NCBI RefSeq assembly: GCF_035946055.1
Contig: NZ_CP108364.1
Coordinates: 2,294,001 to 2,358,000, forward strand
DNA from: Streptomyces sp. NBC_01341
GTDB lineage: Bacteria > Actinomycetota > Actinomycetes > Streptomycetales > Streptomycetaceae
DNA length: 64,000 nt
Reading direction: 5' to 3'
The notes under the pieces were generated by a model. The model worked only from the letters and a program-made list of their open reading frames with translations. It was not told the DNA's origin and did not search any database. Below are positions 4,357-24,171 of this stretch, piece by piece; the stretch's first letter is position 1, and the number at the start of each line of letters is the position of its first letter. Position numbers and translations under genes: made by a program.

Positions 4357-4839
4357 GGTGACCTCCTGGGAGCAGATGGTAGATCACCGGGCATCCCCAC
4401 GTCCGCCGCGGCTCCGATGCCCCCTTTTAACTGTTGGTGCGCTCGATGTTCCTACGGCATGTACCGACACGCAGGGGGAGTCGGTACATCTGAGGGGCGG
4501 CCGCGGTGCAGAGGCATTGGATCAAGACAGATTCTGTCAATTCCGGTCTTGTGCTTGTAACTTCAGCAGGTAGCACCGGATGCTGCTGGGGTTCGGAGAA
4601 GCAGAAGATGTCCGGCCATGGCGTCGTGCCATGGCGGCTTCTGACTCGCGGACCCTGGAGATCCCCGTGGACACCCCTGTCCTGCGGGCCGGTTGTGCAT
4701 GCTCGTCGCCGCCGGCACGTACCTCGGAGCCGCTTCGGCTCCCCCGTCGCTCGTTCGTGAGCGACGGCGCCTGTCTGATGCTCAGGCCCTCCTGCAGCGC
4801 CTCCTCCCTGTCGGCGACCTACGCCGGAGAGGAGACGCA
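4357..4839. promoter_or_regulatory. Divergent control region between kinase and drmA, with two perfect inverted repeats
   Basis: This 483-base gap separates divergently read operons. It contains a perfect 10-base inverted repeat, ATGTACCGAC at 4459-4468 and GTCGGTACAT at 4480-4489, with an 11-base spacer. It also contains a perfect palindrome GACAGA-T-TCTGTC at 4526-4538. Both look like operator sites for a dimeric regulator; which protein binds is unknown. I see no convincing -35/-10 pair. The open frame continues upstream of the drmA start used here, but without drmA family similarity. Confidence 0.5.
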
Positions 4840-8292: not shown

Positions 8293-10190
8293 TGGCGTTC
8301 AACCCCAGGAACGACGAGATGTCACGCGACCGTGGCCAGGTCCTCTTCAGGTTCCGGCCCGGCCAGACCTTCGACCACCGTGGCGGGTACACCACGCAGG
8401 TGATCCAGCTCGGGCGTGACGAGGAGTTCGATGGTCCCTCCCTGGATCGTGACCACCTCGTGCAGGAGGCGATGAGGTTCGTTCGCAGATGGCGGACCGC
8501 CGGACGTGCGTTCGTCCCCGGTTCCGACCGCGCACCCGAGTTTCCCGGTGACCAGGACCGACTCGCCGATCGCCACTACGAGGTCGTGGTCCCGGGCAAG
8601 GTCTTCTGTCGCGTCTGGCCCCGGGTGGTGCGCTGCTCCAGGGCCGGGTGCGGGCACGTCTGGACGGCCGGCGACCCTCGGCCCGGAACCGACGACTGGC
8701 CGCCGGCCTGTCCGGCCTGCGGCGGCGTGGTCGGTAACCGGCAGCTCCAGTTCGTCTTCGCGCACAAGTGCGGTGAGACGTCGCCGATGTACCCCCCTAG
8801 CAAGTGCCCCAGGGGGCACACGCGGTTCAGGCTCGACGACCGCGCCAGTCGGTTCCGCGACTTCCGCTGGGAGTGCATGACCTGTGGCTTTCCTCTGGGG
8901 GTGCAGTGGAGCTGCAGCAACTCCTCGTGCAGCTACCCGGACAAGTTCATGAACCCCCTGCTTCACTCGGCGGGAACCGCGCACGTCGGCCACGGGCTCA
9001 CCCTCGTGAACGTGACGACGACTGAGGAGGCGACCCGGCAGAGCAATCCGCTGTACACCGCGGCCGTGCTCGGCTGGTGGCTCGGGGAGATCACCGAGGA
9101 CGAGTTCCGTCGGCTCACGGACGGGCACACGGTGGACGTCCCCGACGAGGTCGTGGAGAGCATCCGGGTGATGGAGGAGGCCGGTCTGCACGACCAGGCG
9201 CGTGCCCTGCGGGCACGCTTCATGCCTGTCGAGGTGGACCATCTGCGGGACCGGGTGGGCAAGGCCCTCGGGCTCGACGCAGGCAGTGACGACGCCCGTG
9301 GGCTCGCGGCCGAGCTGCACACCTACCGTCGCGTTCTCAATCTGGAACGCCTGGGGGTTCCCCGACTGCAGCGGGAAGCGCGCAACCCGGAGCGGCGCGC
9401 GCTCTACGAACGCTACCCCGGGGTCCTGGCAGCCGCCGGCCTCAGCCGTGACACCTGCCTGGTGAGTGATCTACCGATCACCTACCTCGCGATCGGCTAC
9501 AGCCGAACCGGCTTCAGCCCCGAGGAGGCGGACCTGGTGCCCTACCGTGGTCGCGTGTCACGGGGTGCTCCCGAGAAGACCCTCCTCTACGCACACCCCA
9601 CCCAGGCGGAAGCCCTGCTCTTCCCGGTGGACCGGGACCGGGTGAGCCGGTGGATGGTTCGAAACGATCTCGTCAGCCGACGCACGCTTGACGACGCCGG
9701 CGGAGTCGCCCAGTGGCTTGTACACCAGCTCGGTCCGAGTAACGGCCAGGCTCTCTCCCACGAGGTACGCCCCGCTCCGGGACACCCCGACCTCCCGGTG
9801 CACGAGCTGTTCGGACTGCTGCACTCCCTGTCGCACCAGATCCTGCGGGCACTGGCGGTCGACAGCGGGTACAGCGAGACGAGCCTGTCCGAGTACCTGT
9901 TCCCGTACGACCTGGCCTTCGCCGTCTACCCCAACGGGGGCAGCGACTTCAGCCTGGGCGCCATGAGGACCGTCCTGGAGCAGAACCTCGACGCGGTCGT
10001 GAGCCGTGCCGTCGACAACGACTCCTGCCTGTATGACCCCAACTGCATGATCACGAACGAGGGTGCCGACCACGGCTGCCTGCAGCTGCCCGAGACGGCC
10101 TGTCAGTCCTGGAACCGTAACCTCTCCCGCTGGCATCTCTTCGGTTCCCCGGACGGTTCAAGAGTCGGGTACTGGGACCCGAGTCTCTGA
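8292..10190 (+). CDS. drmB: DISARM protein DrmB (DUF1998)
   Basis: This 632-residue protein has the DUF1998 C-terminal signature: LLHSLSHQ, then a cysteine pattern with CLYDPNC, GCLQLPE and C-x3-N-x2-L (about residues 510-620). Two further zinc-type cysteine clusters lie near residues 115-145 (CSRAGCG ... CPACGG) and 195-220 (CMTCG ... CSNSSC). DrmB pairs with DrmA in all DISARM systems, where the complex binds DNA ends and is autoinhibited until triggered. The ATG overlaps the drmA stop, so the two are coupled. An alternative start at 8214 lies inside drmA and is less likely. Confidence 0.9.
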   Translation: MAFNPRNDEMSRDRGQVLFRFRPGQTFDHRGGYTTQVIQLGRDEEFDGPSLDRDHLVQEAMRFVRRWRTAGRAFVPGSDRAPEFPGDQDRLADRHYEVVVPGKVFCRVWPRVVRCSRAGCGHVWTAGDPRPGTDDWPPACPACGGVVGNRQLQFVFAHKCGETSPMYPPSKCPRGHTRFRLDDRASRFRDFRWECMTCGFPLGVQWSCSNSSCSYPDKFMNPLLHSAGTAHVGHGLTLVNVTTTEEATRQSNPLYTAAVLGWWLGEITEDEFRRLTDGHTVDVPDEVVESIRVMEEAGLHDQARALRARFMPVEVDHLRDRVGKALGLDAGSDDARGLAAELHTYRRVLNLERLGVPRLQREARNPERRALYERYPGVLAAAGLSRDTCLVSDLPITYLAIGYSRTGFSPEEADLVPYRGRVSRGAPEKTLLYAHPTQAEALLFPVDRDRVSRWMVRNDLVSRRTLDDAGGVAQWLVHQLGPSNGQALSHEVRPAPGHPDLPVHELFGLLHSLSHQILRALAVDSGYSETSLSEYLFPYDLAFAVYPNGGSDFSLGAMRTVLEQNLDAVVSRAVDNDSCLYDPNCMITNEGADHGCLQLPETACQSWNRNLSRWHLFGSPDGSRVGYWDPSL

Positions 10191-10266
10191 GCCCGACGGC
10201 CGTCCCCGACCCGCCCTGTCGACACGCAGGGCTCCCGACCACCGAAGTGCACGAGTGGAGCTCTGC

Positions 10267-11811
10267 GTGAGACCAGAACAGGACCTGCTGGGCGTCCTTG
10301 CCGAGGCCCGGGACCGGGCCCTAACCCTGCGCGGATGGGACTCCGGACCGGAGCGGATCTACGACCTGCTCCGGACCGCGACCAGAGTCCGCGCGATGGA
10401 GATCAGCTCAAGAGTCACGACGGACGTTCCGTGGGAAAGCGTTCTCGCGCAACTCGTCGCGTGGCATCACGACCAACCCGTCGGCACTGGTGCGTGCTCG
10501 GGCGGGGACGCCGACGAGATCGTCCTCGCTGCGGTGGCAGCCCAGCGGTTCGACCCCTTGGAGGCCAGCATCCGGAGCGGTGCCTACGACGTACGCATGA
10601 CGAGAGGTGACTTCCGCGTGCGTCACCGCTGGGACGCCTCCGCCGAAGTGGCCGACATGATCCTCGAGCAGGACGCGCGTCCCAGGGGCGTACCCCTGCT
10701 CTCCGACGTGGAGCGGAAGTGGATCTCGTCCCGAGTCGTCGACTCTCGTAGCGGTCCACCGCCGGAGGTCCTCAAGGCAGCTGTCCAGCGGGCCGCTGCG
10801 ACGATAGAGGTGTACCGGCAGTCGGTACCCGAGGGCCAGGTTCCCGACTCCTTCCAACTCGGAGAGGGGATGACCGCCGGTGACATGACCAGCGTCCTGG
10901 CGGTGATCATGGGAATCGCCTCTCTGAGCGAGCACACCGCGCACAGGCTCTCCCGTCTGGAGGCGACGCTCGCACACATGCCGACCTCCCAGCTGCTCGC
11001 CGCCATCGCGGAGATGTGCCCGAACGTGTCCGAGGCGCACCAGGCTCTGGTGGTGGAGAGACTCACCTACCGACCCGGCAGGTCCTGTAGGACCTCCCCT
11101 CTGATTAGCCACGACGACGTCGTGATCATCTGTCCACCCCTCCTGACGCCGAGGACCGTGGACGCGATCATGCTTCGCTCGGCCACTCATGCGCCTGGTG
11201 GGTTCGGCCGCATCGGAAGGGAGCAGGGTGCACGTGCAACGGCCTGGGCGGAGTGGCTGCGCGCCACCCCGGGCGCCCTGGTAGCCGAGCGCGTCCCGGC
11301 TGCCAGGACCGACGGCGGGTCTGCCGGCGATCTGGACGTGGTCGTCGTGGACCCGGTCCGTCGGCTCGGCCTCTGCCTCGAGATCAAATGGCCGATCGAA
11401 GCCCTGTCCCTGCACGAGGGCATGAAGGTCGAGAGCTGGATCACCTCTGCAGCAGGGCAGTTGGACCGTCTCAGAGGCGAGCTCCGATCGGGTGCCGCGA
11501 GTGCTCGTCTGCCGCGAAGCTGGCCCTCGTTCGACTCGATCAGCTGGACCTGGTGCGTCGGCACGCCGCAGCAGCTCACCACGCGCCCTCTTCCCGTTCC
11601 GGACATGCACGCCACCTCTCTCCGTTACGTGCAGGCGCTGGGGACGCCGCCCGACCTCGGTTCCCTGGTGGCCGCCCTGAGGAGCCCGGATCTTCCGGCC
11701 AGAGGGGTGCACTTCGACGTGCGGAAACGGTCGATCTCCTTGGGCCGACACCGAGTACACGTCGACGCGCTCGGGATACGCACGAGCTCTTGGCGCCCCC
11801 GCTTCGGGTAG
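10267..11811 (+). CDS. PD-(D/E)XK nuclease-like protein in the drmC position
   Basis: The gene follows drmB by 76 bases and encodes 514 residues. Residues 354-374 hold a PD-(D/E)XK-type core: GDLD with D357, a hydrophobic strand, then E372-I-K374. This predicts a restriction-endonuclease fold, probably metal-dependent DNA cleavage, although the N-terminal 330 residues are unrecognised. In described DISARM operons the third core gene drmC encodes a phospholipase D-fold protein; I find no HxKx4D motif here, so this is not DrmC. The GTG at 10267 behind GTGGAG is preferred over longer starts that overlap drmB. The nuclease call rests on the short motif only. Confidence 0.68.
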   Translation: MRPEQDLLGVLAEARDRALTLRGWDSGPERIYDLLRTATRVRAMEISSRVTTDVPWESVLAQLVAWHHDQPVGTGACSGGDADEIVLAAVAAQRFDPLEASIRSGAYDVRMTRGDFRVRHRWDASAEVADMILEQDARPRGVPLLSDVERKWISSRVVDSRSGPPPEVLKAAVQRAAATIEVYRQSVPEGQVPDSFQLGEGMTAGDMTSVLAVIMGIASLSEHTAHRLSRLEATLAHMPTSQLLAAIAEMCPNVSEAHQALVVERLTYRPGRSCRTSPLISHDDVVIICPPLLTPRTVDAIMLRSATHAPGGFGRIGREQGARATAWAEWLRATPGALVAERVPAARTDGGSAGDLDVVVVDPVRRLGLCLEIKWPIEALSLHEGMKVESWITSAAGQLDRLRGELRSGAASARLPRSWPSFDSISWTWCVGTPQQLTTRPLPVPDMHATSLRYVQALGTPPDLGSLVAALRSPDLPARGVHFDVRKRSISLGRHRVHVDALGIRTSSWRPRFG

Positions 11812-11936
11812 CGAATCAACCTGGACATCGGCTGTCTGACGCGTCATGTGAACTCGTCCGGTCAACCAGCCGAACCACTAAGAGCACGGTGCTTGTGCGT
11901 CCTCTCGGGACGGCGATACATCCCCTGCAGGTAGCC

Positions 11937-13469
11937 ATGCCGGTGGATAATCATATCCATCACCAGAACTCGGAAGTAGGCTGGAAAATCGGCGTGACGT
12001 ACGACATCGCGGCTCCGGAGCCGGCGGGCCTGGTCGCCTCCCTCAGTTCTCTCGGGTACTCGCTTCCTGCCGCCATCGCGGACCTCGTGGACAACAGCAT
12101 CTCCGCCGGGGCGTCAACGGTCGACGTCGAGTTCACCTGGGCCGGAATGGACTCGTGGATCGCCGTCGCAGACGACGGTGCCGGGATGACGGCCGAGGAC
12201 CTCGTGACCGCCATGACCGTCGCCGCGCGCGGCCCCGCGGCAACACGCAGTGCCACCGATCTCGGGCGTTTCGGCGTGGGTCTCAAGTCCGCGTCCTTCT
12301 CCCAGGCCCGGCAGCTCAGCGTCGCCACCGCGAGGTCCGGCGAATGGCACGTGCGCACCTGGGACCTCGACGTCGTCGAGACCTCCGGTCAGTGGCGGCT
12401 GCTCCGCGGCGCGGACGAGGCGACGACCGAACTGCTGGAGCGGATCCGGGGGACGGCGGACCACGGGACGGTCGTGTTGTGGCGGCGCCTGAACGGCTAC
12501 CACGGCGGCGCGGTGACGGTGGAGGACGAACGGACCCAGAAGCAGTTCTACGCGGAGTCCGCGCGCACCGAGTCCCACCTGGGGATGGTCTTCGCGCGGT
12601 TCCTCACCGGAGGCAGCCGGCTCAACCTCCGGGTGTCCGGTACCCCCGTCACGCCCTGGGATCCCTTCCTCGCCCGCCACCCGTCCGTACAGCCACTTCC
12701 CGTCGAGCGCCTGCCGCTGGGATCGGGTTCCGTACGGGTGGAGGCGTTCGTCCTCCCGAGCGCTCAGAGGCTCACCCCGGACGAGTACGAGAAGGCCGGA
12801 GGCCCACGTGGATGGCTGGACCAGCAGGGGTTCTACGTCTACCGCCGGAACCGTCTGATCCTGGCGGGCGACTGGCTCGGACAACGCGGGCTACGCCGCG
12901 AGGAGAAGTACAACCTGGCCCGGATCGCCGTGGACATCCCCGCCGAGACCGACGTCGAGTGGATGGTCGACGTGCGGAAGTCCAGCGTCGTGCCGCCCGT
13001 CGCCCTTCGTTCCCACCTGCGACGCATCGCCCTGCAGGCCAGGAGACGAGCCTCCGACGTGCTGCGGCACCGCGGGCAGATCGCGGCGCGCACGCACGGG
13101 GACCCGCTGCTGTACGCGTGGAACGTGCGTCGGTCCGAGGACCGGGTCACCTGCCGGGTCAACCGTGGTCATCCCCTCGTGAAGGCGGCGCTGCGTGCTG
13201 GCGGTGCGAGCCCGGACGACGTTCGTGCCCTGATCCGCCTGCTCGAGGAGACCGTGCCGGTCACCGCCCTCCGTGTGATGCACGAGACGGACACCAGCGA
13301 CGACCCCGAGCCCTTCGGCGGCCCCGGTCCCGCCGACGCAGGGGCCATGGAGGTCGCACAGCGGATCTACGAGGCGTTGGTCTCGGACGGCCGTTCCCCT
13401 GCGGCCGCCCGCGAACGCCTGCGGACCATGCCCCCCTTCGACCAGATGCAGGGCTTCTGGAACGGGTGA
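11937..13469 (+). CDS. MORC/MutL-like GHKL ATPase
   Basis: A 510-residue protein with one N-terminal GHKL ATPase: N-box ADLVDNSISAGA with N53, DDGAGM at 79-84 and GRFGVGLKSAS from 110. The extended region after it resembles the transducer half of MutL/MORC proteins. MORC-like GHKL ATPases are established partners in restriction-like operons with Z1 helicases; they are thought to clamp DNA in an ATP-dependent way. The ATG at 11937 has only a weak ribosome site. The 125-base gap before it is more AT-rich than its surroundings and could hold a promoter, so this gene may begin a second operon. Confidence 0.85.
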   Translation: MPVDNHIHHQNSEVGWKIGVTYDIAAPEPAGLVASLSSLGYSLPAAIADLVDNSISAGASTVDVEFTWAGMDSWIAVADDGAGMTAEDLVTAMTVAARGPAATRSATDLGRFGVGLKSASFSQARQLSVATARSGEWHVRTWDLDVVETSGQWRLLRGADEATTELLERIRGTADHGTVVLWRRLNGYHGGAVTVEDERTQKQFYAESARTESHLGMVFARFLTGGSRLNLRVSGTPVTPWDPFLARHPSVQPLPVERLPLGSGSVRVEAFVLPSAQRLTPDEYEKAGGPRGWLDQQGFYVYRRNRLILAGDWLGQRGLRREEKYNLARIAVDIPAETDVEWMVDVRKSSVVPPVALRSHLRRIALQARRRASDVLRHRGQIAARTHGDPLLYAWNVRRSEDRVTCRVNRGHPLVKAALRAGGASPDDVRALIRLLEETVPVTALRVMHETDTSDDPEPFGGPGPADAGAMEVAQRIYEALVSDGRSPAAARERLRTMPPFDQMQGFWNG

Positions 13470-13532
13470 GGCCGTTGTCAGTGTCCGCGCGTAATCTGCC
13501 CCATGCCGTTCCCGCTCAGCCGGAGGTCTGCC

Positions 13533-16313
13533 GTGAGTTCCACCCCTGACAACTCGTCGGAGTCCCTTGCCAAGGCCCGTCGTCTGGTGCTGGCACTGCT
13601 GTCGCAGGACCGTCAGCCGTCGCCGGAGGAAGTGCAGAACGCGGTGACCGTCATCTTCGGGATGCTCGCCGGCCAAGGCGAGGTTCTCGACCGTGACCAA
13701 CTGGCCAAGGAGATCGAGGTCCTGACAGCCGTGTTCCAGGAAGGCTCTTCCGGCCTGGACAGCGACAGCGGACACGAACCGTGGCTGCCGGAGGCGAAGA
13801 ACGACCGGGCATGGGACTTCTGGGAGCGCTACCGGCGCTACCTGGAGGACGTACGCAGCCTCCCCCCGCTAGTCGTTCGTCGGCTGGACCAGAGCACAGA
13901 CGAGGTCCTGAGTCAGCTCGAGGACCCTCGCCGAGTCGGCTCCTGGCGTCGGACGGGTCTGGTCATCGGTCAGGTGCAGTCAGGAAAGACCGGCCAGTAC
14001 ATCGGTCTGGCCGCGAAGGCGGTGGACGCGGGATACCAGTTCGTAGTGATCCTCGCCGGCATCCACAACGACCTCCGGAGCCAGACCCAGCTCCGTGTCG
14101 ACGAGGGGCTGCTCGGGTTCGATACACAGCACCAGCAGCGGTCCAACCAGAACGGGAAGTCCCGCCTCATGGGTGCCGGACGGATGCCGGGGGTCAAGAA
14201 GCTCGACATCGCGTCCCCCACCAACAGCTCGGAGAAGGGTGACTTCGGCCGCCAGGCCGCCAACGCCGTCAACTTCCCGCTCGGCCGCTTCCCGGTGGTC
14301 CTCGTCGTCAAGAAGCACTGGAGGATTCTGGAGTACCTGCGAACGTGGGTGACCGAGGTTCAAGGCACCGAGGACGAGACGGGGAACAAGGTCGTACGCG
14401 ACATTCCCCTGTTCGTCATCGACGACGAGGCGGACAACGCCTCCATCAACACCGAGCGCGACCCCGACGCGGACCCGACCAAGACGAACGGCGCGATCCG
14501 CGAGCTCATGAAGAGCTTCGAGAAGTCGGCGTACGTCGGGTACACCGCCACTCCCTTCGCCAACATCTACATCGACCCCGACGTCAACCACGTCGAACTC
14601 GGAGCAGACCTCTTCCCCGACAGCTTCATCCGCACGTTGCCCTCGCCGACCAACTATCTTGGTCCGGAACGCGTGTTCGGGCTCCGGACCGACAACGACG
14701 ACGAGGAGGACGTTCCTCCTCTGCCCCTCGTGCGACCCGTAGCCGACTCGGAGAGCTGGATCCCGAGCAAGCACAAGTCCTCGTTCGTCCCCTCCGACGA
14801 CCTTCCGCAGTCCCTCCGCGACGCGATCGACTCGTTCGTCATCGCCAGCGCCGCCCGGAGGGTACGGGGACAGACGAAGGTGCACAACTCCATGCTCGTG
14901 CACGTCACCCGCTTCACGGCAGTCCAGGGGATCGTCCGCGACCAGGTGGATGACTACCTGCGCCTCCTCGTGGACTCTCTCCGTGACCGATACGGGCAGG
15001 CAGCACAACGCACGGCCGGGCTCCGGGCCCTGTGGGAGGGCGACTTCGCACCCACGACAGACCACTTCCCTGCGGACGAGGCCCGGCGCGTCACCTGGGA
15101 CGACGTGTCGAACCAGCTGATGCCCGCGCTGCGGAAGATCGTAGTAAAGACAGTGAACGGCGCCTCTCGCGACGCCCTGGACTACTACGAGCACCGCCGG
15201 ACCGGTCTCTCGGTCATCGCGATCGGGGGCCAGAAGCTCTCCCGGGGCCTCACTCTGGAGGGGCTGACCGTCAGCTACTACCTGCGTACCTCCACCACGT
15301 ACGACACCCTGCTCCAGATGGGACGCTGGTTCGGATACCGACCGGGGCACGAGGATCTCTGCCGTCTGTACACCACGCCCGACCTGCAGGCGAAGTACAT
15401 CGAGGTGACCGCTGCGACCGACGAACTGCGTCGCGAGGTCGAGGAGATGGCGGCGCTGGACCTCAGCCCGAGGAACTTCGGACTGAAGGTCCGTGCCTCG
15501 TCACTCGGGCTCGCCGTCACGGCCGCCAACAAGATGCGCCAGGGCACGAAGGTCATGCTCAGCTACTCCGGGGAGGGGCCGGAGACGGTGATCTTCAAGC
15601 TCTCCGACGGGGTCCCCGAGCACAACCTCAAGGTCCTCGAGGAGTTCGTCCGGAGACTCGAAGCCCGCTCCACAGGGAGGCAGGAGACGACGGGTGCCAA
15701 CGTGACATGGTCACAGGTGACCTCCGACGCCGTCGTCGACTTTCTCAACCGTTACGAGACGGACCGCATGGCGCAGAGAGTCCGCCCCCGCTTCATCGCG
15801 AAGTACATCGAACAGTGCACGGCCGTCGGAGAGCTTCCGGAGTGGACGGTGGTGCTCGTCGGGAAGAGGGCGTCCACGGACTACCAGAACGTCTCCGGTC
15901 ACGAGGTGGGACCCGTGGAGCGCACGGCGCTGAACGACACCGAGAGGGACGGCCGGCACACGATCCGTCGTCTGCTCAGCCCTCCCGACGAGCACCTCGA
16001 CCTCGAGAAGGACCAGATTCTGGCCGCCCTCCAGGCGACGCAGAAGGCGGCGGCCATCAAGAAGCGTGAGAAGGTGCCCCAGACCCCTTCAGGTGATCAT
16101 CTCCGATGGCAGCGACGACCCGACCAGGCGTTGCTGCTCATCTACCTCGTCGAACGGCCCGCGTCCGAGAACGCCTCCCCTCAGTCGCCGCTCGTTGGCT
16201 TCAAGGTGAGCTTTCCGCTCTCGAAGCACCAGTCCGACACCGAGTACGTCGTCAACAGCATCTGGCAGCAGGAGGGCCTCGACGCCCTGGACGAAGAGGG
16301 GGACGGGGAGTGA
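13533..16313 (+). CDS. Z1-domain superfamily 2 helicase/endonuclease-like protein
   Basis: A 926-residue protein with the full set of Z1-family motifs: Walker A GQVQSGKT near residue 145, Walker B VIDDEADN near 296, YVGYTATPFAN just after, and GGQKLSRGLTLEGL near 563 followed by QMGRWFGYR. Z1 proteins are superfamily 2 helicase relatives found with MORC ATPases, DUF4420 and AIPR proteins in restriction-like defence loci. The GTG at 13533 is chosen because GGAGG lies six bases before it; an ATG at 13503 is the alternative. The stop overlaps the next start (GTGA), so translation is coupled. Confidence 0.92.
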   Translation: MSSTPDNSSESLAKARRLVLALLSQDRQPSPEEVQNAVTVIFGMLAGQGEVLDRDQLAKEIEVLTAVFQEGSSGLDSDSGHEPWLPEAKNDRAWDFWERYRRYLEDVRSLPPLVVRRLDQSTDEVLSQLEDPRRVGSWRRTGLVIGQVQSGKTGQYIGLAAKAVDAGYQFVVILAGIHNDLRSQTQLRVDEGLLGFDTQHQQRSNQNGKSRLMGAGRMPGVKKLDIASPTNSSEKGDFGRQAANAVNFPLGRFPVVLVVKKHWRILEYLRTWVTEVQGTEDETGNKVVRDIPLFVIDDEADNASINTERDPDADPTKTNGAIRELMKSFEKSAYVGYTATPFANIYIDPDVNHVELGADLFPDSFIRTLPSPTNYLGPERVFGLRTDNDDEEDVPPLPLVRPVADSESWIPSKHKSSFVPSDDLPQSLRDAIDSFVIASAARRVRGQTKVHNSMLVHVTRFTAVQGIVRDQVDDYLRLLVDSLRDRYGQAAQRTAGLRALWEGDFAPTTDHFPADEARRVTWDDVSNQLMPALRKIVVKTVNGASRDALDYYEHRRTGLSVIAIGGQKLSRGLTLEGLTVSYYLRTSTTYDTLLQMGRWFGYRPGHEDLCRLYTTPDLQAKYIEVTAATDELRREVEEMAALDLSPRNFGLKVRASSLGLAVTAANKMRQGTKVMLSYSGEGPETVIFKLSDGVPEHNLKVLEEFVRRLEARSTGRQETTGANVTWSQVTSDAVVDFLNRYETDRMAQRVRPRFIAKYIEQCTAVGELPEWTVVLVGKRASTDYQNVSGHEVGPVERTALNDTERDGRHTIRRLLSPPDEHLDLEKDQILAALQATQKAAAIKKREKVPQTPSGDHLRWQRRPDQALLLIYLVERPASENASPQSPLVGFKVSFPLSKHQSDTEYVVNSIWQQEGLDALDEEGDGE

Positions 16314-17320
16314 CCATCACGGAAGCCGAGTGGTGCGACCTCGAGGCGCCTCAGACCGCCCAGGGGCGATCCAGCATCCGCCTGTACCCCGACGCCCCGT
16401 TGGACGTCTTCCTGTCCGTCTCCCACCCGGCGCACCGACGGATGCTCGTACTCAGGACCGACGCACGCTCCGCGGACCACATCGTGCGCTCCGTGACCCG
16501 CCTGCCCAGCGCGGCGGGCCTGGAGATGAACCTGAGTGCCGTGTCGCGGCTCGAGTACGAGCTGCAGGTGGTCCTCACCGCGGACGAGCACCGCGAGGTG
16601 TTCAACCCCCTCGTCACCGACGTCGCCGACACCGTCAGGGGAGCTCCCGGAGCCGCGGCAGCCCTGACCGCGGCCGTGGAGCGGTTCGAGCGTTGGCAGG
16701 ACCTTCTTCGCTCCGTGGGCAAGGACGGTCTCGGTCCCGAGGCCCGTCGCGGGCTCGTCGGCGAGCTCCTGTTGCTGCGCGACCGCGTCCTGCCAGTCGT
16801 CGGGGCGTCCGAAGCCGTCAGCTCCTGGTCCGGACCGAGCGGGGCCAACCAGGACTTCCACCTGCCCGCCGTGGCCATCGAGACGAAGGCCAGCACGGCC
16901 AAGCGCCCCCGCAACATCCGTATCGCGAGCGAACGCCAGCTGGACGGCACGGGGACGCCCTCACTCCTGTTGTCCTTGGTCATGCTCGACGAACGTCGTG
17001 GTGGTTCCGGCGAGAGTCTGAACCGCGTGGTGGACCGCGTACGCGAGCAGCTGACGAGCACGGCCGTACGCGCCGACTTCGACGGCCGGCTCGTGAGGGC
17101 CGGCTATCTCCCGAGCCACCGGGACCTGTACGAGGAGCCTCGGTACACCCTCCGAGACCTGCGTTCCTGGCACGTACGGGACGAATTTCCGAGGCTCGTC
17201 GAAGCCGACCTGCCCGAGGGAGTGGGCGACTGCACGTACAGCCTGAGCATCTCGGGGCTGGACCGGTACCGTGCCACGGCCGACGAGGTGACCGCACTCA
17301 TCGGGGGGACCCATGCCTGA
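16310..17320 (+). CDS. PD-(D/E)XK motif protein (DUF4420 type)
   Basis: This 336-residue protein carries a nuclease-like core near residues 180-200: GANQDFHLP, then AIETKAS. The aspartate and the E-T-K triplet are the expected PD-(D/E)XK metal ligands. The family is routinely encoded directly after Z1 helicases and is the predicted DNA-cutting subunit of that system. The GTG start overlaps the Z1 stop by four bases and the 3' end overlaps the AIPR start by eight, so three subunits are made from one tightly coupled message. Confidence 0.85.
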   Translation: MTITEAEWCDLEAPQTAQGRSSIRLYPDAPLDVFLSVSHPAHRRMLVLRTDARSADHIVRSVTRLPSAAGLEMNLSAVSRLEYELQVVLTADEHREVFNPLVTDVADTVRGAPGAAAALTAAVERFERWQDLLRSVGKDGLGPEARRGLVGELLLLRDRVLPVVGASEAVSSWSGPSGANQDFHLPAVAIETKASTAKRPRNIRIASERQLDGTGTPSLLLSLVMLDERRGGSGESLNRVVDRVREQLTSTAVRADFDGRLVRAGYLPSHRDLYEEPRYTLRDLRSWHVRDEFPRLVEADLPEGVGDCTYSLSISGLDRYRATADEVTALIGGTHA

Positions 17321-19322
17321 ACTCGACCTGTACCAGTACGCCCACGACGTCGTCGTCGACGTCCAAGCCACGGCCGAGGCCGAGGGGACGACCACTCCCG
17401 AAGTCTTCACGCGACGCGTGTTCGAGGACCTGGAGAAGGGCGGCATCGCCTCCAACACGTTCAGCGCCTACCACGGTTCGCACGGTCACCTGGTCCACGG
17501 CTACGGCATCGGGGACACGGGTGAGTGCCTCGACCTCTTCGTCACGGACTTCGACGTGGAGCCGCTGGCTTCCAAGCTCACGAAGGGCTTGGTCGAGTCC
17601 TACTTCAGACGGCTCCTCACGTTCGTCCGTCGCTGCCGGGACGGGCTGCGCCAGCACATCGACGAGTCCTTCGACGTCTACGACATGTGCGCGGCGGTGG
17701 AGAAGTCCCTCACCGAGGTACAGCGAGTTCGGCTCTTCCTGCTAAGTAACCGTGTCAGCACCGGCACCGCGGTGCCACCCACCGACTTCGACGGCCTCCC
17801 GGTGACCCACGAGGTGTGGGACCTCGCGCGCCTGCACCGTCACGAGACCTCCGGCAGCATCAGCGAACCCATCGTCGTCGAGTTCGTCCCGCCGCTGCCA
17901 TGCGTCGCAGCACCCAGCAGCGAACCCGACCACTCGGTGACCATGACCGTGATTCCCGGCCAGAGGCTGGCCGAGCTGTACGGGGAACACGGGACCAGGC
18001 TCCTCGAACTGAACGTCCGCTCCTTCCTACAGGCCCGTGGGACCGTCAACCGCGGCATCCGGGAGACACTTCTGAACTCCCCCGGAAGGTTCCTGGCGTA
18101 CAACAACGGCATCACGGCCACCGCTTCGCAGGTCGACTTCGCTCACGACGCCGAAGGCAGACCGACCGGTGTCCGCCGCGTGCACGGACTGCAGGTCGTG
18201 AACGGCGGTCAGACGACAGCCTCACTGCACTACGCGAGAAGCCGTGACAAGGCGGACCTGTCGCACGTGTCCGTTCAGATGAAGCTGACGGAAGTGTCCC
18301 CCGAGCGTCTGTCGGAGATCGTCCCGATGATCTCCGAGTACTCCAACACCCAGAACCGGGTGACGATGGTCGACTTCAGCTCGAACCACGAGTACCACGT
18401 GGCCGTGCAGCGGATCACCCGCTCCCTGTGGGCGCCGGCCACGGACGGCAGCGGCCAAGAGGTCCACTGGTTCTACGAGCGGGCGCGCGGCCAGTACACT
18501 GACGAGTTGGCCAAGGCCCGGACTCCGGCGAGGCAGCGCGCCTTCAAGAAGCTCAATCCGACCAACCGGAAGTTCACGAAGGCGGACCTGGCGAAGTACT
18601 GCAACTCCTGGAACCACCTCCCGTTCCAGGTCAGCCGTGGCGCACAGAAGAACTTCGTCGCGTTCATGGACCGCATCGACGAGGCGACCCCGCATGTCGA
18701 CGTCCAGTACTGCCAACGTGTGATCGCCATGGCCGTCCTCTTCAAAGCGGTCGACCGCATCGCGGCGAGCCACGAGGCCGGGAGCTACAAGAGCATGATC
18801 ACGGCGTACACCGTGGCCCGTCTGTCGCTCGCGACGAATCAGCGCATCGACCTGGACAGGATCTGGCGGGAGCAGCAGATCTCCCCCGCGGTCGAGGCGG
18901 CGATCGACGACCTCTGCCCCAGGGTGATGCGCGTGGTGACCAGGCCGCGTGAGGGAAACCACGTGGGCGAGTGGGCGAAGAAGGTCGTGTGCTGGGACGC
19001 GGTCTCCCGCGTGCCATGGTCCGTGCCCGCCGACCTGAAGGCGGAGCTCCTCGAGCATCCGTTGGACGAGAAGACTCTCGCAGGGGGCTCAGGAGGTAGC
19101 CAGGGCGCCTGCGACGAGGTGGCGTCGATCCCGGCGGACGAGTGGTACGCCGTCGAGCGGTGGGCGAAGGAGACACGCAATCTCGTGCCCGCCCAGCGGC
19201 AGCTGGCACAGTACGTCGGCAGACGACTCGAACTCGGTCAGGGGATCCCGGAGCCGCAAGCGGTTCAGGCGCTACACGCACGCAACAGGGCTCTGTCCCT
19301 CGGGTTCGTCTCGGAAGCCTGA
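17313..19322 (+). CDS. AIPR family protein (abortive-infection phage resistance)
   Basis: A 669-residue protein with the AIPR core between about residues 240 and 360: FLAYNNGITAT near 264, LQVVNGGQTTASL near 296 and EYSNTQNRV near 345. AIPR proteins were named from abortive-infection genes and recur at the end of Z1/DUF4420 operons; their biochemical activity is not settled. The ATG overlaps the end of the DUF4420 gene. It is the last plus-strand gene of the tightly packed run, and a short minus-strand gene follows 19 bases later. Confidence 0.9.
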   Translation: MPELDLYQYAHDVVVDVQATAEAEGTTTPEVFTRRVFEDLEKGGIASNTFSAYHGSHGHLVHGYGIGDTGECLDLFVTDFDVEPLASKLTKGLVESYFRRLLTFVRRCRDGLRQHIDESFDVYDMCAAVEKSLTEVQRVRLFLLSNRVSTGTAVPPTDFDGLPVTHEVWDLARLHRHETSGSISEPIVVEFVPPLPCVAAPSSEPDHSVTMTVIPGQRLAELYGEHGTRLLELNVRSFLQARGTVNRGIRETLLNSPGRFLAYNNGITATASQVDFAHDAEGRPTGVRRVHGLQVVNGGQTTASLHYARSRDKADLSHVSVQMKLTEVSPERLSEIVPMISEYSNTQNRVTMVDFSSNHEYHVAVQRITRSLWAPATDGSGQEVHWFYERARGQYTDELAKARTPARQRAFKKLNPTNRKFTKADLAKYCNSWNHLPFQVSRGAQKNFVAFMDRIDEATPHVDVQYCQRVIAMAVLFKAVDRIAASHEAGSYKSMITAYTVARLSLATNQRIDLDRIWREQQISPAVEAAIDDLCPRVMRVVTRPREGNHVGEWAKKVVCWDAVSRVPWSVPADLKAELLEHPLDEKTLAGGSGGSQGACDEVASIPADEWYAVERWAKETRNLVPAQRQLAQYVGRRLELGQGIPEPQAVQALHARNRALSLGFVSEA

Positions 19323-19586: not shown

Positions 19587-20081
19587 ATGGCAGCAGATGA
19601 GGAAGCTGCCCTCAAGGGATGGGTCCGCACCGAACAGAGCGGCCACCTGCGCGGTCGGCGCTCCCGGGACACCAAACCCGAAGTCGCCCTGCGGCGGGCC
19701 GTGCACCGGCTCGGCCTCAGGTTCCGGCTACAGCGCAAGGTGGCCGCCCGCTGCACGGCGGACTTCGTTCTGCCCAGGCACGGCGTCGCGGTGTTCGTCG
19801 ACGGGTGCTACTGGCACGGGTGCCCGGTCCACGGCCCGAAGGCGTTCCGCGGTCCGAACGCCTCCCTGTGGACCGCGAAGATCAAGACCAACAAGGAACG
19901 GGACCGTCGGAACACCGCTGCGGCCGAAGCTGCCGGGTGGACCGTCGTCCGTGTCTGGGAGTGCGAGATCCGGACGGACGTCGAGGGCGCTGCGCTCAGC
20001 GTCGCCCGACGGTGCGCCCAGCCTGACGCGACTGGGCGGGCACCGTCTCCCGATCGTTCATCTCGCTCGGCACCTCCGTAA
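19587..20081 (+). CDS. vsr: Very short patch repair (Vsr) endonuclease
   Basis: A 164-residue protein matching Vsr throughout: R-x-SR-DTKPE near residues 25-32, the catalytic aspartate D59 in TADFV, FVDGCYWHGCP at 70-80 with the zinc-site cysteines and histidine, and VWECEI near 124. In bacteria with C5 methyltransferases Vsr nicks next to T:G mismatches made when 5-methylcytosine deaminates. Related proteins in restriction-like loci may act as nucleases. The ATG follows GGGGAC. Its last 86 bases overlap the end of the convergent methyltransferase gene. Confidence 0.92.
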   Translation: MAADEEAALKGWVRTEQSGHLRGRRSRDTKPEVALRRAVHRLGLRFRLQRKVAARCTADFVLPRHGVAVFVDGCYWHGCPVHGPKAFRGPNASLWTAKIKTNKERDRRNTAAAEAAGWTVVRVWECEIRTDVEGAALSVARRCAQPDATGRAPSPDRSSRSAPP

Positions 20082-21996
20082 ACAGGTGATCGCCCGAGAG
20101 ACTTTCCCTGTCAGCGCAGTACTGGCTGAGAGGACAGGCATCACAGACAGGCTCCTTGGCCCTGCAGATACTGGTCCCGATGAGACGGAGCGCTGCCATG
20201 CGTAGGGGCGCGTCCTCGCCTGCCCCGACGAGCTTCACCAGGTCCACTCGACCGTCGCTGAGCCTGTTCGTACGGTCCGAAGCGCTGCCGTGGAGACGAG
20301 CGGCGACGCGGAGTGCACCCTGCCCGACCCACAGAAGGTCCTCCGCGATCAGCAGCCGGTAGACCGTCGCCTCCGCCGGCTTCAGCATCAGGGACTCGCG
20401 GACCTTCTTCTCGTCCTCCCAGGCGCTGGACTCGCCGACCATCACCGAGAGCCGGGCGACCCGGGCCTTGGCAGCCTCGGTCGGCGCAGCCGTGGTGAGC
20501 GCCTCCAGTGAGGCCGTGTTCAGTGACGTCAGCCCCCGTACGATCTCGACCATCGCCGACAACTGGGCGGGCTGCATCCTGGTCCCGGACAGTATGGCCA
20601 CCACGGCAGCTTGCAAGCCTGACATGTGCCTGCCCGGCAGCTGATACCAGTGCTCCGCGTCACGTTGTCCCCGGGCCCAAGCGGTCAGGTCCTCTCGCAC
20701 CGTCCGCCAGTGAGGTCGGAGTCCACCCTCAGCCGACTGCCCGTCACCTACCGGCAGCAGCGCCTCGGCCGCCGCCTCACCCAGGAGAGGCGGCACCGCG
20801 TTACCGATCTGACGGAAGGCGTCACTGCGCGTGCCCGCGAAGCGGAACTTGTCCGGGAAGGTCTGCACCCGTGCCGACTCCCGCACGGTGAGGGTGCGTG
20901 GCTGCTCCTGGTCGGGGTGGATGTACCAGTAGCCGTCCTTGGCGATGTGGGCGGTGATCGACCTGCTGAGATCCGACCAGTCGAGCTTCTTGTACTTGTC
21001 CGTAAAGTGGTCGGCCTTGTAACGCTGCAGTTCCGGCGAGATCTGCGAGTACAGGGTGGTGGAGTCCATGCTGGAGAAGATCTCGGCGTCGTCCGCCCGG
21101 ACCCGTCGGGTCATGTGGTCCCACACCCGGTCCTTACGCGCCCACTTACGCATGTCCTGAGCGAACTTGGAAAGCTCGGACGGTTCCTCGTACGGGAGTT
21201 CGCGCTCCCCGACACGCTCGGTGGGCACGACAGGCAGCACCGGCAGGTCACCGATAGCGTCACGCAGCGTGGTCCGCTGATCGTGCTCCAGCTCCTGCCG
21301 CCACGAGAAGCACTCCACGTCGTTCCTCGCGAGCAGGATCAGCCGCTTCCTGTGTTGCGGAACGCCGTACTTCCACGCATCGACGAGACGGACCTGCGTC
21401 GCGTATCCGAGGTCCTCCAGCTGCTCCTCGATGGTGCGTACCACGAAGAAGTCGTCGCCGAGACCCATGTCCGGCACGTTCTCCATGAGGACCGCACGTG
21501 GCCGGAGGCGTTTCACGACGTCGAGGTAGGCGCTCCACAGCTCCTTGCGGCGATCATGGGGATCGCGGCCGTGATGCTCCACGAGACTGCGGATCTTGCT
21601 CCGGCCAGCCCTGCTGAACGGCTGGCATGGCGGGCCTCCGGCCACCAAGTCGATCTTGGCGGGCGCCAGCATCTCGACGAGCTTGTCACGCTCGTCAGGA
21701 TTACCCAGATCCATGTGGAGACTCATGCCCGGGAAGTTCGCCGCGTGCGTCTGGAGCGCCCGCTCGTTGAAGTCGACCGCAGCTGCGACCGTCCACCCGG
21801 CTCGCTCCAGCCCGAGACTCAGTCCACCCGCTCCAGAGAAGAGGTCGACGGCCAGACGCTTGTCAGCACCGAAGCCACCGAGCCACTTGCCGAAGTTCTC
21901 GGGCTTGCAACTGTTCCTGTGGCGCCTGAGCTCCAGACAGTCGCTCCGCTCCAGAGGCACCCCATAGTGCTGCCTGCGCACTGCGCCAACCTCCAT
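19996..21996 (-). CDS. DNA C5-cytosine methyltransferase with C-terminal endonuclease III-like Fe-S region
   Basis: A 666-residue protein. Residues 48-415 are a C5-cytosine methyltransferase: motif I DLFSGAGG, the catalytic C124 in GGPPCQPFS, ENV at 172-174, QHRKRLI at 214-220 and IGNAVPP near 397-403. Residues about 455-630 resemble the endonuclease III/HhH-GPD fold: LQAAVVAILSGTR at 461-473, a V-x5-RV-x2-R segment at 557-567, and a C-X6-C-X2-C-X5-C cluster (C611, C618, C621, C627), identical in spacing to the endonuclease III [4Fe-4S] loop. The catalytic Asp of that family aligns with G558 and the LPGVGRK lysine motif is absent, so this part probably does not cleave bases. The methyltransferase probably marks self DNA. 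It is comparable to DrmMII of class 2 DISARM. Confidence 0.9.
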   Translation of the reverse strand: MEVGAVRRQHYGVPLERSDCLELRRHRNSCKPENFGKWLGGFGADKRLAVDLFSGAGGLSLGLERAGWTVAAAVDFNERALQTHAANFPGMSLHMDLGNPDERDKLVEMLAPAKIDLVAGGPPCQPFSRAGRSKIRSLVEHHGRDPHDRRKELWSAYLDVVKRLRPRAVLMENVPDMGLGDDFFVVRTIEEQLEDLGYATQVRLVDAWKYGVPQHRKRLILLARNDVECFSWRQELEHDQRTTLRDAIGDLPVLPVVPTERVGERELPYEEPSELSKFAQDMRKWARKDRVWDHMTRRVRADDAEIFSSMDSTTLYSQISPELQRYKADHFTDKYKKLDWSDLSRSITAHIAKDGYWYIHPDQEQPRTLTVRESARVQTFPDKFRFAGTRSDAFRQIGNAVPPLLGEAAAEALLPVGDGQSAEGGLRPHWRTVREDLTAWARGQRDAEHWYQLPGRHMSGLQAAVVAILSGTRMQPAQLSAMVEIVRGLTSLNTASLEALTTAAPTEAAKARVARLSVMVGESSAWEDEKKVRESLMLKPAEATVYRLLIAEDLLWVGQGALRVAARLHGSASDRTNRLSDGRVDLVKLVGAGEDAPLRMAALRLIGTSICRAKEPVCDACPLSQYCADRESLSGDHLFTEVPSEMNDRETVPAQSRQAGRTVGRR

Positions 21997-22389
21997 CGGA
22001 CGAGAAGAACGAGCACCAGGAGATCACACAACCTCTGGCAAGATCAAGAATCCGACGTCCACCTCGGATGACTGGATCGATGAGGACGCCACAGGCGCCC
22101 CGAGAATATTACGCGGCGCCCATCCCTGTATGGGAAAGCAACCCCCCAGTAACACCGGAGAGGGTCAACCATACGGACAAACACCGACAAGACCATCAGA
22201 GCTCTCGCCAGTCGAGATTCATGTCATCGCCTCTCCCGCGGGCTCGGCTCTCGCCCCGAGGCGATGTCGGCGTCCTGCACTCGGCCAATCCCATGGTCGA
22301 GCTGCCTGCCCTTCCCGCTGCCCGACGCGGAATACCCGCAGCGTCCTCTTACTTGCACCTCTATAGCGAACACGGGAGGGGGCGCCGGG
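21997..22389. other. Divergent intergenic region, likely promoters
   Basis: About 390 bases between the methyltransferase (minus) and the DUF5655 gene (plus). Both genes must be started from here. I see only a weak hairpin, CCCAT at 22119-22123 with ATGGG at 22130-22134, and no gene I can support. Confidence 0.4.
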
Positions 22390-23325
22390 GTGGCCGAGCT
22401 GATGATGTTCCGACGGGACGCGGACGGTCGGGATGTCGAGCTGTCCAGTGCAACGGTGGCGCTGGAGGTGGAGCTGCAGCGGCGGGTCGAGGCCGGCCTG
22501 GAGCAGATGCTGGGTGTTCGTTTCCTGGCCTCGGAGTATCCGACCGGGCCTTGGCACCGGGGGCGGATCGACACCCTGGGACTCGATGAGAACGGCAGCC
22601 CGGTAGTGATCGAGTTCAAGAAGGGCTCGGACAGCGGGGTGATGTCCCAGGCTGTCTCCTACCTGTCCTGGCTGGAGTCGGCGCACCACGAGTTCGAGGC
22701 GCTCGTGCGGAAGGTGCTGGGGGCGGAGGCCGCCGAGTCCGTCGACTGGCGTCGTCCGCGGATGATCTGCATCGCGGCGGGCTTCTCGCACCACGACCGG
22801 GTGGCGGTGCAGAGGTTGCCCGAGCGGATCGACCTGGTGCGCTACCGGATCTTCGACGGTGGCCTGCTGGGGCTGCTGCTCGTGGACTCCGCGACCGGCT
22901 TCCCGAGCGCTGCCTCGTCTCGCCGGGGCCGGGAGCGGGCACCCGTGGCGGACAGCGTGCCGACGGCTTCGGCGGTCTCTCCGCCTGCGGGTGGAGGAAC
23001 GGTGCCGGAGTGCCTGCGGAACCTGTATGCGGAGTTGGACGAGGCGCTCACAGCGTGGGGCGAGGTGGAGGTGGCGTCGCTGCGGCACTACATCGCCTAC
23101 CGGCGGTTGGTGAACGTGGCGTCGGTGATCTTCCGTCCGAAGCACGAGGCGATCCTGGTGTACCTCAGACTCGACCCGGACGCGGTCGAGCTGGAGGAGG
23201 GCTTCACCCGGGACATGCGCGGTATCGGGCACCTCGGGACCGGTGACCTAGAGGTGCGTATCGTCTCGGCAGCCGACTTGGAGAAGGCGGCGCCGCTGAT
23301 CCGGCGGGCGTTCGAGGCAGCCTGA
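22390..23325 (+). CDS. DUF5655-type protein with PD-(D/E)XK-like N-terminal domain
   Basis: A 311-residue protein. Near residues 55-75, GRIDTLGLDE then VVIEFKKG gives the D ... E-x-K spacing of a restriction-endonuclease fold (NucS/DUF91-like). The C-terminal 110 residues match DUF5655, ending in a repeated-strand pattern near LGTGDLEVRIVS. A low-complexity linker separates the two. The GTG at 22390 follows a GGGAGGGGG ribosome site; frames extending further upstream lack similarity. The role is unknown; the position beside the defence locus suggests nucleic acid processing. It ends at a strong hairpin terminator. Confidence 0.7.
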   Translation: MAELMMFRRDADGRDVELSSATVALEVELQRRVEAGLEQMLGVRFLASEYPTGPWHRGRIDTLGLDENGSPVVIEFKKGSDSGVMSQAVSYLSWLESAHHEFEALVRKVLGAEAAESVDWRRPRMICIAAGFSHHDRVAVQRLPERIDLVRYRIFDGGLLGLLLVDSATGFPSAASSRRGRERAPVADSVPTASAVSPPAGGGTVPECLRNLYAELDEALTAWGEVEVASLRHYIAYRRLVNVASVIFRPKHEAILVYLRLDPDAVELEEGFTRDMRGIGHLGTGDLEVRIVSAADLEKAAPLIRRAFEAA

Positions 23326-23335
23326 CGTAACAGGA

Positions 23336-23377
23336 GGGGCGGCTGGTGCATCGGTTAGTCGATGCTCCGGCCGCCCC
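23336..23377. terminator. Bidirectional hairpin terminator
   Basis: The arms GGGGCGGC (23336-23343) and GCCGCCCC (23370-23377) pair perfectly, with a further inner helix GCATCG/CGATGC. TTT follows. The hairpin lies between two convergent genes and can serve both. Confidence 0.85.
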
Positions 23378-23424
23378 TTTGGCGTCTGTGGGCCGCCGGC
23401 CCTGGCCTCTTTTCGCTCTCACGC

Positions 23425-24171
23425 TCATGCCTCCGGTCCGGCCAGCTCGAAGTCGTCCTTCGTCAGTTCCGCTCGGAGCCGCTCCTCGGCGACGTCGGCG
23501 TAGTGCGCGGACAGCTCGACGCCCACGAAGCGGCGTCCCTCGCGCAGGGCCGCGACCCCGGTGGAGCCGCTGCCGGTGAACGGGTCGAGGACGGTGCCGC
23601 CCTCGGGGCACACCTGGACGAGCTGCTGCATGACCTCGACCGGCTTCTGGGTGATGTGAACCCGGCCCTTGCGGGGCTGGGAGGCGATGTAGTGGCCCGG
23701 CAGGTAGAGATCGCGGGTGTTGTCGAGGGAGCCCTTGACGCCCCAGATGATGAACTCCGAGTCCTGCTTCGGCCCGCCCTTGCGGGGCCGACTGGACGGC
23801 TTGATCCACGGAATCGTGCCGCTCCAGGTCCATCCCGCCATCTGCAGGGCGTCGGAGGTGGTCGGCTCCTGTCGCCAGTCGGTGAAGACCATCGCGACCG
23901 CGTGCTCGGTCGAGGCCCGGTACGCCTCGGTGAGCAGTTCGGTGAGCCAGGAGCGGTAGGAGCGCTGGTCGCGGTTTTCGCCGGGGAAGTTGGCGAGGTC
24001 GTGCGCCGAGTTACTCGTGACGTACTTGGCGCGAGCGGTGCGGCCGGTTCGATCGGAGCTGGTGCGGCCTCCGGAGTTGTACGGCGGGTCGGTGATCACC
24101 GCCTGGACGCTCTCGTCCGGGAGGGACTTCAGGACGGTCAGGGCGTCGCCTCGGTGCAGCGTGTAGCTCAT
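23425..24171 (-). CDS. Orphan DNA N6-adenine or N4-cytosine methyltransferase
   Basis: A 248-residue methyltransferase with DPPY at about residue 28 (motif IV) before DPFTGSGSTG near 197 (motif I). This order defines the beta class, which methylates exocyclic amino groups, either N6 of adenine or N4 of cytosine. ITQKP near 173 is the usual motif after the target region. No cognate restriction gene is adjacent, so it may be an orphan or phage-type methylase. No clear ribosome site precedes the ATG at 24171. It is convergent with the DUF5655 gene. Confidence 0.88.
   Translation of the reverse strand: MSYTLHRGDALTVLKSLPDESVQAVITDPPYNSGGRTSSDRTGRTARAKYVTSNSAHDLANFPGENRDQRSYRSWLTELLTEAYRASTEHAVAMVFTDWRQEPTTSDALQMAGWTWSGTIPWIKPSSRPRKGGPKQDSEFIIWGVKGSLDNTRDLYLPGHYIASQPRKGRVHITQKPVEVMQQLVQVCPEGGTVLDPFTGSGSTGVAALREGRRFVGVELSAHYADVAEERLRAELTKDDFELAGPEA

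Follow-up and report, generated by a model that had tools for sequence, protein, structure and literature searches.

Neighbourhoods in which Z1, DUF4420, methylase and AIPR genes lie together have been described as a candidate system, mza or 'type II', in the accessible part of PMC9523054, where the mzaA sigma factor is given as occurring in a few type II systems only. Comparable neighbourhoods are described in the accessible parts of PMC2292703 and PMC8011034. The main texts of these three papers do not contain the word glycosylase, and neither MutY nor iron-sulfur occurs in the main text of PMC9523054. Among DNA glycosylases, MIG is said to counter the deamination of 5-methylcytosine (accessible part of PMC2714593) and the roles of the [4Fe-4S] cluster in MUTYH have been called enigmatic (accessible part of PMC12000561). 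According to the same part of the latter paper, the connection between a cluster Cys and the catalytic Asp of MutY is made by R149 (R241 in the human protein) and an Asn. Full-text searches of open-licence papers, and term searches within PMC10853773, PMC9266487 and PMC12839542, gave no description of a fusion between a C5 methylase and a MutY-type domain.

The locus described here lies in a 64,000-nucleotide stretch of the genome of Streptomyces sp. NBC_01341 (the window). It includes a C5 cytosine methylase gene which faces an operon-like row encoding a MORC/MzaB-like ATPase and Z1, DUF4420, AIPR and Vsr proteins (Table 1). Homologues of mzaB, C, D and E are all present (PADLOC), and the window shares with the mza or type II candidate system (accessible part of PMC9523054) its MzaB-, C-, D- and E-like genes as well as a C5 methylase. 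Both drmA and drmB of DISARM are also matched: a DrmA-like helicase and a DrmB-like protein are encoded at 4693-10190 (+), immediately upstream of a 582-aa protein (10063-11811, no PADLOC match) and of the MORC/Z1/AIPR row. From these matches the window appears to be a hybrid island, in part DISARM-like and in part mza-like. At 866-4356 (-) lies a gene for a protein with two GHKL ATPase matches, adjoined by one for a receiver-domain protein; the pair may resemble the HK-like/RR-like pairs in the accessible part of PMC8011034. On the other side of the methylase, 22264-24171 encodes PDC-S18, a candidate defence protein (E 9.3e-127) whose gene converges on that of an N4/N6 methylase; both of these occur in 10 of 62 related loci. 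A second Z1 gene is present in the same genome (G000:C1:4687689-4688435), with Vsr-like and MORC-like matches nearby.

Table 1. Features of the fused methylase and of the facing gene row, with positions in the window
Feature	Position	Strand	Evidence
C5 cytosine DNA methyltransferase with predicted C-terminal pseudo-glycosylase tail, 666 aa	19996..21996	-	Pfam DNA_methylase 9.8e-58, residues 50-413
Methyltransferase domain, residues 49-415	20752..21852	-	Pfam and conserved motifs
Predicted MutY/MIG-type helix-hairpin-helix glycosylase-like tail, residues 427-640	20077..20718	-	AF2 model, VIA, 42-sequence alignment
Degenerate hairpin region, residues 530-552 (KPAE replaces GVG-type hairpin)	20341..20409	-	Alignment; helix-turn-helix kept in model
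V557-G558-Q-G-A-L-R563-V-A-A-R567: dead catalytic-Asp site G558 and conserved Arg	20296..20328	-	Alignment
N577-R-L-S-D-G-R583 stretch	20248..20268	-	Conserved across tails; not seen in aligned MutY/MIG sequences
Predicted [4Fe-4S] loop, C611-x6-C618-x2-C621-x5-C627	20116..20166	-	Cys spacing
Vsr-type nicking endonuclease, convergent	19587..20081	+	Pfam Vsr 1.4e-16
AIPR protein (MzaE-like)	17313..19322	+	Pfam 2.1e-96; PADLOC MzaE 2.6e-87
DUF4420, PD-(D/E)XK protein (MzaD-like)	16106..17320	+	Pfam, PADLOC
Z1-domain protein (MzaC-like)	13503..16313	+	Pfam, PADLOC
GHKL ATPase, MORC/MzaB-like; homology from about 12006	11253..13469	+	Pfam, PADLOC

The 666-aa ORF includes the catalytic motifs of C5 cytosine methyltransferases, as judged by Pfam and by motif reading: DLFSGAGGLS (at residue 51), PPCQPFS (122), ENV (172), QHRKRL (214), DGYWYIHP (354) and GNAVPP (398). 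The tail follows motif X. An earlier note, made from the sequence alone, had proposed that 20107-20640 (-), which corresponds to residues 453-630, encodes part of a methyltransferase fused to an endonuclease III-like iron-sulphur domain whose catalytic site is dead. Much of this is borne out. Residues from about 427 to 640 form a helix-hairpin-helix DNA-glycosylase-like domain in the predicted structure, C611, C618, C621 and C627 stand exactly where they had been read, with the spacing of endonuclease III, and V557-x5-R563-V564-x2-R567 is found in the tail with G558 at the place of the Asp. The LPGVGRK-like hairpin, which had also been reported as missing, is indeed absent from the window tail, where the region reads ...LMLKPAEATV... 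(K539). Family models recognise little of this: the Pfam Fe-S model matches weakly, under its cut-off (E 0.1 with the whole protein and 0.029 with the fragment), and the NCBIfam mutY model touches the protein at 594-632 with an E value of 3.8e-4, far below its cut-off.

Placement of the tail among the glycosylases rests on a structure model and on a second group of tails. The AF2 model, built from 42 tails of the window and related loci (the type-1 alignment, A2), had a mean pLDDT of 88.4 and a pTM of 0.84. The best 32 Foldseek matches to it were all MutY, MIG or EndoIII, at a best E value of just 4.2e-3 and TM scores (by query) of 0.46-0.60 over these 32. VIA alignment gave Z 14.2 with MutY (rmsd 4.6, 199 residues), a value which can be reached by chance between helical models, and a tie between MIG (1kea, Z 11.5) and EndoIII (2abk, Z 11.4). 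The structure comparison, set beforehand as the test for a different fold, thus returned that of a glycosylase. At the sequence level, the type-1 profile alone does not separate Nth (94.1%) from MutY (92.2%; hhalign), and without the Cys loop the similarity to both drops to a probability of 0.2-0.3%. Since the type-1 match hangs on the Cys-loop end, it is the structure model, together with a bridge through the type-2 tails, that establishes the fold.

Type-2 tails surfaced when 394 genomes of the class were searched with the type-1 profile. They form a second, more MutY-like kind of tail, carried by other members of the same methylase clade. Aligned together, seven of them score 98.5% against MutY (E 1.8e-15, 195 columns) and 94.8% against Nth (E 5.1e-8). 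Once the Cys loop is taken out, MutY still reaches 95.1% (E 3e-8) but Nth drops to 28.7%, with four reversed controls at 1.4% or less. Searched against the PDB, a ten-tail type-2 profile finds Mig.MthI (4.2e-17) level with MutY (4.3e-17), followed by EndoIII (2.1e-11). Pfam gave weak EndIII_4Fe-2S matches in two of ten type-2 tails and nothing more. Full-length glycosylase homology is thus found for type 2 and reaches type 1 through the link between the two, which match at 99.5%. In a tree of 37 sequences (midpoint-rooted, with one MIG sequence and long branches), a split separates all tails from MutY, MIG and Nth (support 97/96), type-1 rows falling among type-2 rows, and no nesting inside the MutY or MIG branch was found. 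Because the tree places the tails beside MutY, MIG and Nth, we consider them a separate branch, and descent of the tails from MIG is a guess, since the type-1 profile, the tie between MIG and EndoIII and the tree all fail to single out MIG.

Judged by these profiles and the predicted structure, the tail is a MutY/Mig.MthI-type glycosylase-like domain, closer to these enzymes than to endonuclease III. With the MutY/MUTYH catalytic domain the tails share the fold, the spacing of the [4Fe-4S] loop, the RV-x2-R helix with its cluster-linking Arg and, for type 2, alignment over the full length; unlike MutY, they lack the catalytic Asp and the hairpin glycines, are fused behind a methylase and, in type 1, lack the Glu (by eye). 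Mig.MthI (1kea) is the top PDB sequence match of the type-2 profile, level with MutY, and type-2 rows often share its pocket letters (the Glu, an Arg at Glu+5 and a Leu at the place of L187), but it is a separate active enzyme with an Asp and a hairpin that the tails do not retain. Endonuclease III belongs to the same superfamily and has identical Cys spacing, in addition to the VIA and type-1 profile scores given above; however, its type-2 profile match is weaker than those of MutY and MIG, and its K120 and D138 (E. coli numbering) are missing in the tails. The label endonuclease III-like in the earlier note therefore stands for the superfamily but needs correction for the nearest family: MutY ranks above endonuclease III in the structural comparison, and both MutY and Mig.MthI do so with the type-2 profile, although the type-1 profile and the tie between MIG and EndoIII do not separate them. 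Mag2 (4b23), a glycosylase homologue whose PDB title speaks of sculpting DNA at abasic sites, is a parallel in being glycosylase-like and working through DNA binding, but it resembles the tail distantly (Z 6.8). It is not known to have glycosylase activity or to be fused to a methylase. Clusterless MutYX (8uuc), with a MutY fold (Z 9.7), presents the mirror image: there the cluster is lost, here the cluster loop is kept and the catalytic residues are lost.

The cysteines and the catalytic residues have had opposite fates. Every one of 85 distinct tails scored has all four Cys; L083, with its broken frame, and the noise hit L025 had been set aside before scoring. Of 93 distinct members of the clade, 91 have them too, the two exceptions being the frame breaks L083 and L132 (in L132 the frame changes before the tail, and the contig stops after the third Cys). 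Such conservation rules out a chance Cys motif, and the other outcome that the earlier note had named as refuting it, cysteines that vary between close homologues, did not occur. The spacing varies slightly in a few tails, with C-x7-C in L075, C-x5-C in a Synechococcus homologue and x6 as the final gap where a type-1 MTase belongs to a two-MTase locus. At the place of the Asp, no Asp or Glu was found among the 85 distinct tails (G54 S17 N5 T5 A2 Q1 R1) or in an overlapping, wider set of 90 (G53 S18 T7 N5 R2 A2 Q1 M1 K1); the Synechococcus tail, missed by the pattern (1 of 91), has Thr by eye. The GhG hairpin is absent from the tails aligned, and the catalytic Lys of Nth in the hairpin helix would correspond in the window protein to P540 if counted without gaps, or to E542 if a gap of two residues is allowed. 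Five rows from Lentzea, Saccharothrix and Amycolatopsis (L079, L081, L082, L084 and L086) have Lys where most others have the equivalent of Glu542, and PPGKT for KPAEA; they too are without the Asp. A Glu aligns with that of MutY/MIG in 9 of 12 type-2 rows read and in 0 of 6 type-1 rows read, the window protein having Ala467 at this place (by eye).

R563 does not vary across the 42 rows of the type-1 alignment, nor does its counterpart across the 10 rows of type 2. By position R563 matches MutY R149 (human R241), while the place of the MutY Asn (N146 equivalent) is G560 in the window tail. With R563 kept, the Asn place occupied by Gly and the Asp lost, the cluster side of the MutY link is retained and the catalytic side is gone. 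Conservation is strongest around the Asp-helix and the NRLSDGR stretch and lower in the barrel half. Most tails (36 of 57) carry a charge of +1 between their first two Cys, compared with +2 to +4 in 20 of 21 Nth sequences; five MutY loops scored over the same interval gave +2 three times, 0 and -1. Whole-tail charge has a median of +7 (+2 in the window), against +4 for Nth and +9 for MutY. In one clade methylase (L196, in G912) the tail has shrunk, by eye, to little beyond the iron-sulphur lobe.

The tails are maintained under purifying selection. Median dN/dS for type-1 tails is 0.20 (range 0.07-0.39) and 0.087 for the methylase (Nei-Gojobori; 120 of 121 pairs usable, the pairs being non-independent). 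This set left out L083, beforehand, and the five rows without the motif pattern (L079, L081, L082, L084 and L086). Values so far below neutral indicate that the tail is not a simple relic. It evolves faster than the methylase (mean distance 0.53 vs 0.27), and the two sets of distances correlate (r 0.94), which shared ancestry alone could produce. Compared with the related loci L028-L033, the window shows a synonymous divergence of about 0.5-0.6 over the tail but about 0.15-0.24 over the methylase, which suggests a recombination break between the two domains.

The earlier note had recommended surveying other C5 methyltransferases for the same fusion, and this survey showed the tail to be a fixed architecture in one C5-MTase clade. 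Searching with the tail gave 24 positive genomes among 295 of the genus, after rejection of L025 as noise (E 1.7e-4, with three stops). Peptide patterns derived from the tail retrieved 61 loci among genome contigs, and one viral contig was also found by its tail. Judging by their names, the 61 loci are all from actinomycetes; having been found by tail-derived patterns, they are uninformative on the frequency of tail-less members. Because these searches used the tail, others with the methylase half were added. At E 1e-50 or better they gave 14 places in 12 of 296 genomes, 13 of them in ORFs of at least 636 aa; in the remaining one, in G593, the reading frame is interrupted behind motif X, and the tail goes on in a different frame until the contig stops within it. 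The DGYWYIHP DNA signature matched seven times in 6 of 386 genomes of the phylum, each time with a four-Cys tail, three of the six genomes being already known from earlier searches. Two viral contigs found with the methylase half carry a clade methylase, both with tail, one of them already found by its tail. Every member found with its frame intact has the tail.

Phyla beyond that of the window were sampled via plasmids, phages, viral contigs and the pattern-bound contig scan. A Synechococcus elongatus plasmid, the one plasmid record read among 30 matching the full protein, encodes a methylase 42% identical over the methylase half, with a C-x5-C-x2-C-x5-C tail. The window tail matched nothing in the phage and plasmid collections (tblastn), and the Synechococcus tail matched itself alone among plasmids. 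Among 18 regions fetched around other Z1 genes, three methylase ORFs pass the motif filter, each ending 18-23 aa after motif X; weaker methylase matches in other regions fall short of the filter. A type-2 and type-1 methylase pair flanks Vsr in five of eight regions fetched (L151, L152, L153, L157 and L158), and in L073 the two lie about 3 kb apart; such pairs might serve two strands or two sites.

Sixty-two related, and hence non-independent, loci were scored by tblastn with the window proteins (E 1e-6). MzaB-like ATPases were found in 58, AIPR in 57, Z1 and DUF4420 in 50 each and Vsr in 45. A DrmA-like helicase without Z1 occurs in nine; three further loci, which lie on short or truncated stretches, lack both. 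The count for Vsr was again 45 of 62 when a profile was used, so that in 17 loci, some of them short, Vsr was not found within the sequence covered. In 44 of the 45 loci with Vsr it converges on the methylase, and in 30 the two genes overlap; in the window they share 86 bp at the methylase 3' end, beyond the Cys loop. The 17 loci in which no Vsr was found nevertheless keep the tail with its cysteines, and a Vsr-dependent tail as a rule, an extension of the link to Vsr raised in the earlier note, was therefore rejected. On the Synechococcus plasmid the closest annotated neighbours are two hypotheticals, a DUF6339 protein and an Abi protein, the sequence covered on one side being 3.9 kb because the record is cut there.

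These observations establish the loss of the Asp in every member scored, the retention of the four Cys and of the cluster-linking Arg, purifying selection and the persistence of the tail across partner sets, together with, at the level of a model, the fold. The explanation that we favour, with somewhat more than even confidence, is that the tail is a non-catalytic pseudo-glycosylase of the MutY/Mig.MthI type, fixed in the clade, which acts in cis to hold or read DNA for the methylase. We prefer a role in cis because the tail stays with the methylase while the partner genes change (Z1, DrmA-type and Synechococcus). The four cysteines would hold a [4Fe-4S] cluster. The fusion may have begun as a methylase with its own T:G-mismatch glycosylase, repairing deaminated 5-methylcytosine in the manner of Mig.MthI; excision would then have been lost, Vsr carrying out repair where present, and the iron-sulphur lobe kept as a module working in cis on the DNA round the methylation site, which it would hold or read. 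The DNA forms read could be the double-stranded target, a T:G mismatch or a flipped base, and the module would stabilise the methylase on DNA and possibly mark sites for the neighbouring MORC/Z1/AIPR or Drm machinery. A link to 5-methylcytosine deamination is suggested by the Mig.MthI match, by the adjacent Vsr gene and by the report that MutL physically stimulates Vsr (accessible part of PMC6116569), the last being relevant because a MutL-like ATPase sits in the gene row.

With the iron-sulphur lobe and NRLSDGR kept, the hairpin lost and the charges as given, we expect DNA contact of a changed kind or, as second choice, a docking surface. The second option, plausible but less convincing to us, would make the tail a protein-docking platform: its iron-sulphur lobe would tether the methylase to the MORC-like ATPase, AIPR or the Z1 helicase without reading DNA. 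MzaB-like ATPase and AIPR genes are commoner in the 62 loci than Vsr, and a docking surface would agree with the lost hairpin, a Cys-loop charge below that of Nth and the concentration of conservation around the Asp-helix and NRLSDGR. However, the tail persists as the partners change, in DrmA-type loci and on the Synechococcus plasmid, and its distances track those of the methylase, with the reservation concerning shared ancestry made above. A more specific proposal, which we regard as doubtful, is that the tail is an iron-sulphur mismatch reader, sensing the failures of its own methylase (T:G arising by deamination of 5-methylcytosine, or unmethylated sites) via the link between cluster and Arg and passing them to Vsr or to the MORC/Z1/AIPR/Drm proteins. 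We consider it unlikely that the tail is a switch for redox or oxidative damage in which the cluster would tune methylation or an alarm via the Cys-Arg side, the catalytic end being cut off: the Cys and R563 are kept and the D144 and N146 equivalents lost, and the same Arg in MUTYH couples cluster and active site (accessible part of PMC12000561), but retention of the Arg may serve fold stability alone. Continued base excision by a non-standard active site, most plausible for the type-2 members with the MutY/MIG Glu, is very improbable given that the Asp is missing in all members scored, that the hairpin and the Tyr/Lys site are altered and that the window protein has Ala467. Finally, a relic evolving neutrally, in which a glycosylase in decay simply travels with the methylase, would agree with the faster evolution of the tail, its less conserved barrel half and the two broken frames but can be practically discarded in view of a highest dN/dS of 0.39, the near-universal cysteines and the intact-frame members found, all with tails.

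The function of the [4Fe-4S] cluster in DNA glycosylases is still debated, and the clade, with its pseudo-glycosylase tail, offers a natural separation of functions: a family under selection keeps the four Cys and the cluster-linking Arg and discards the catalytic Asp. If a cluster binds in the tail, its role there cannot be that of positioning the catalytic Asp. The fusion, inside a defence island, joins a base-flipping methylase to a relative of an enzyme that repairs the mutagenic side-product of the methylase and, if the tail did prove to read mismatches, a repair sensor would have been turned into an immune sensor of self and non-self.
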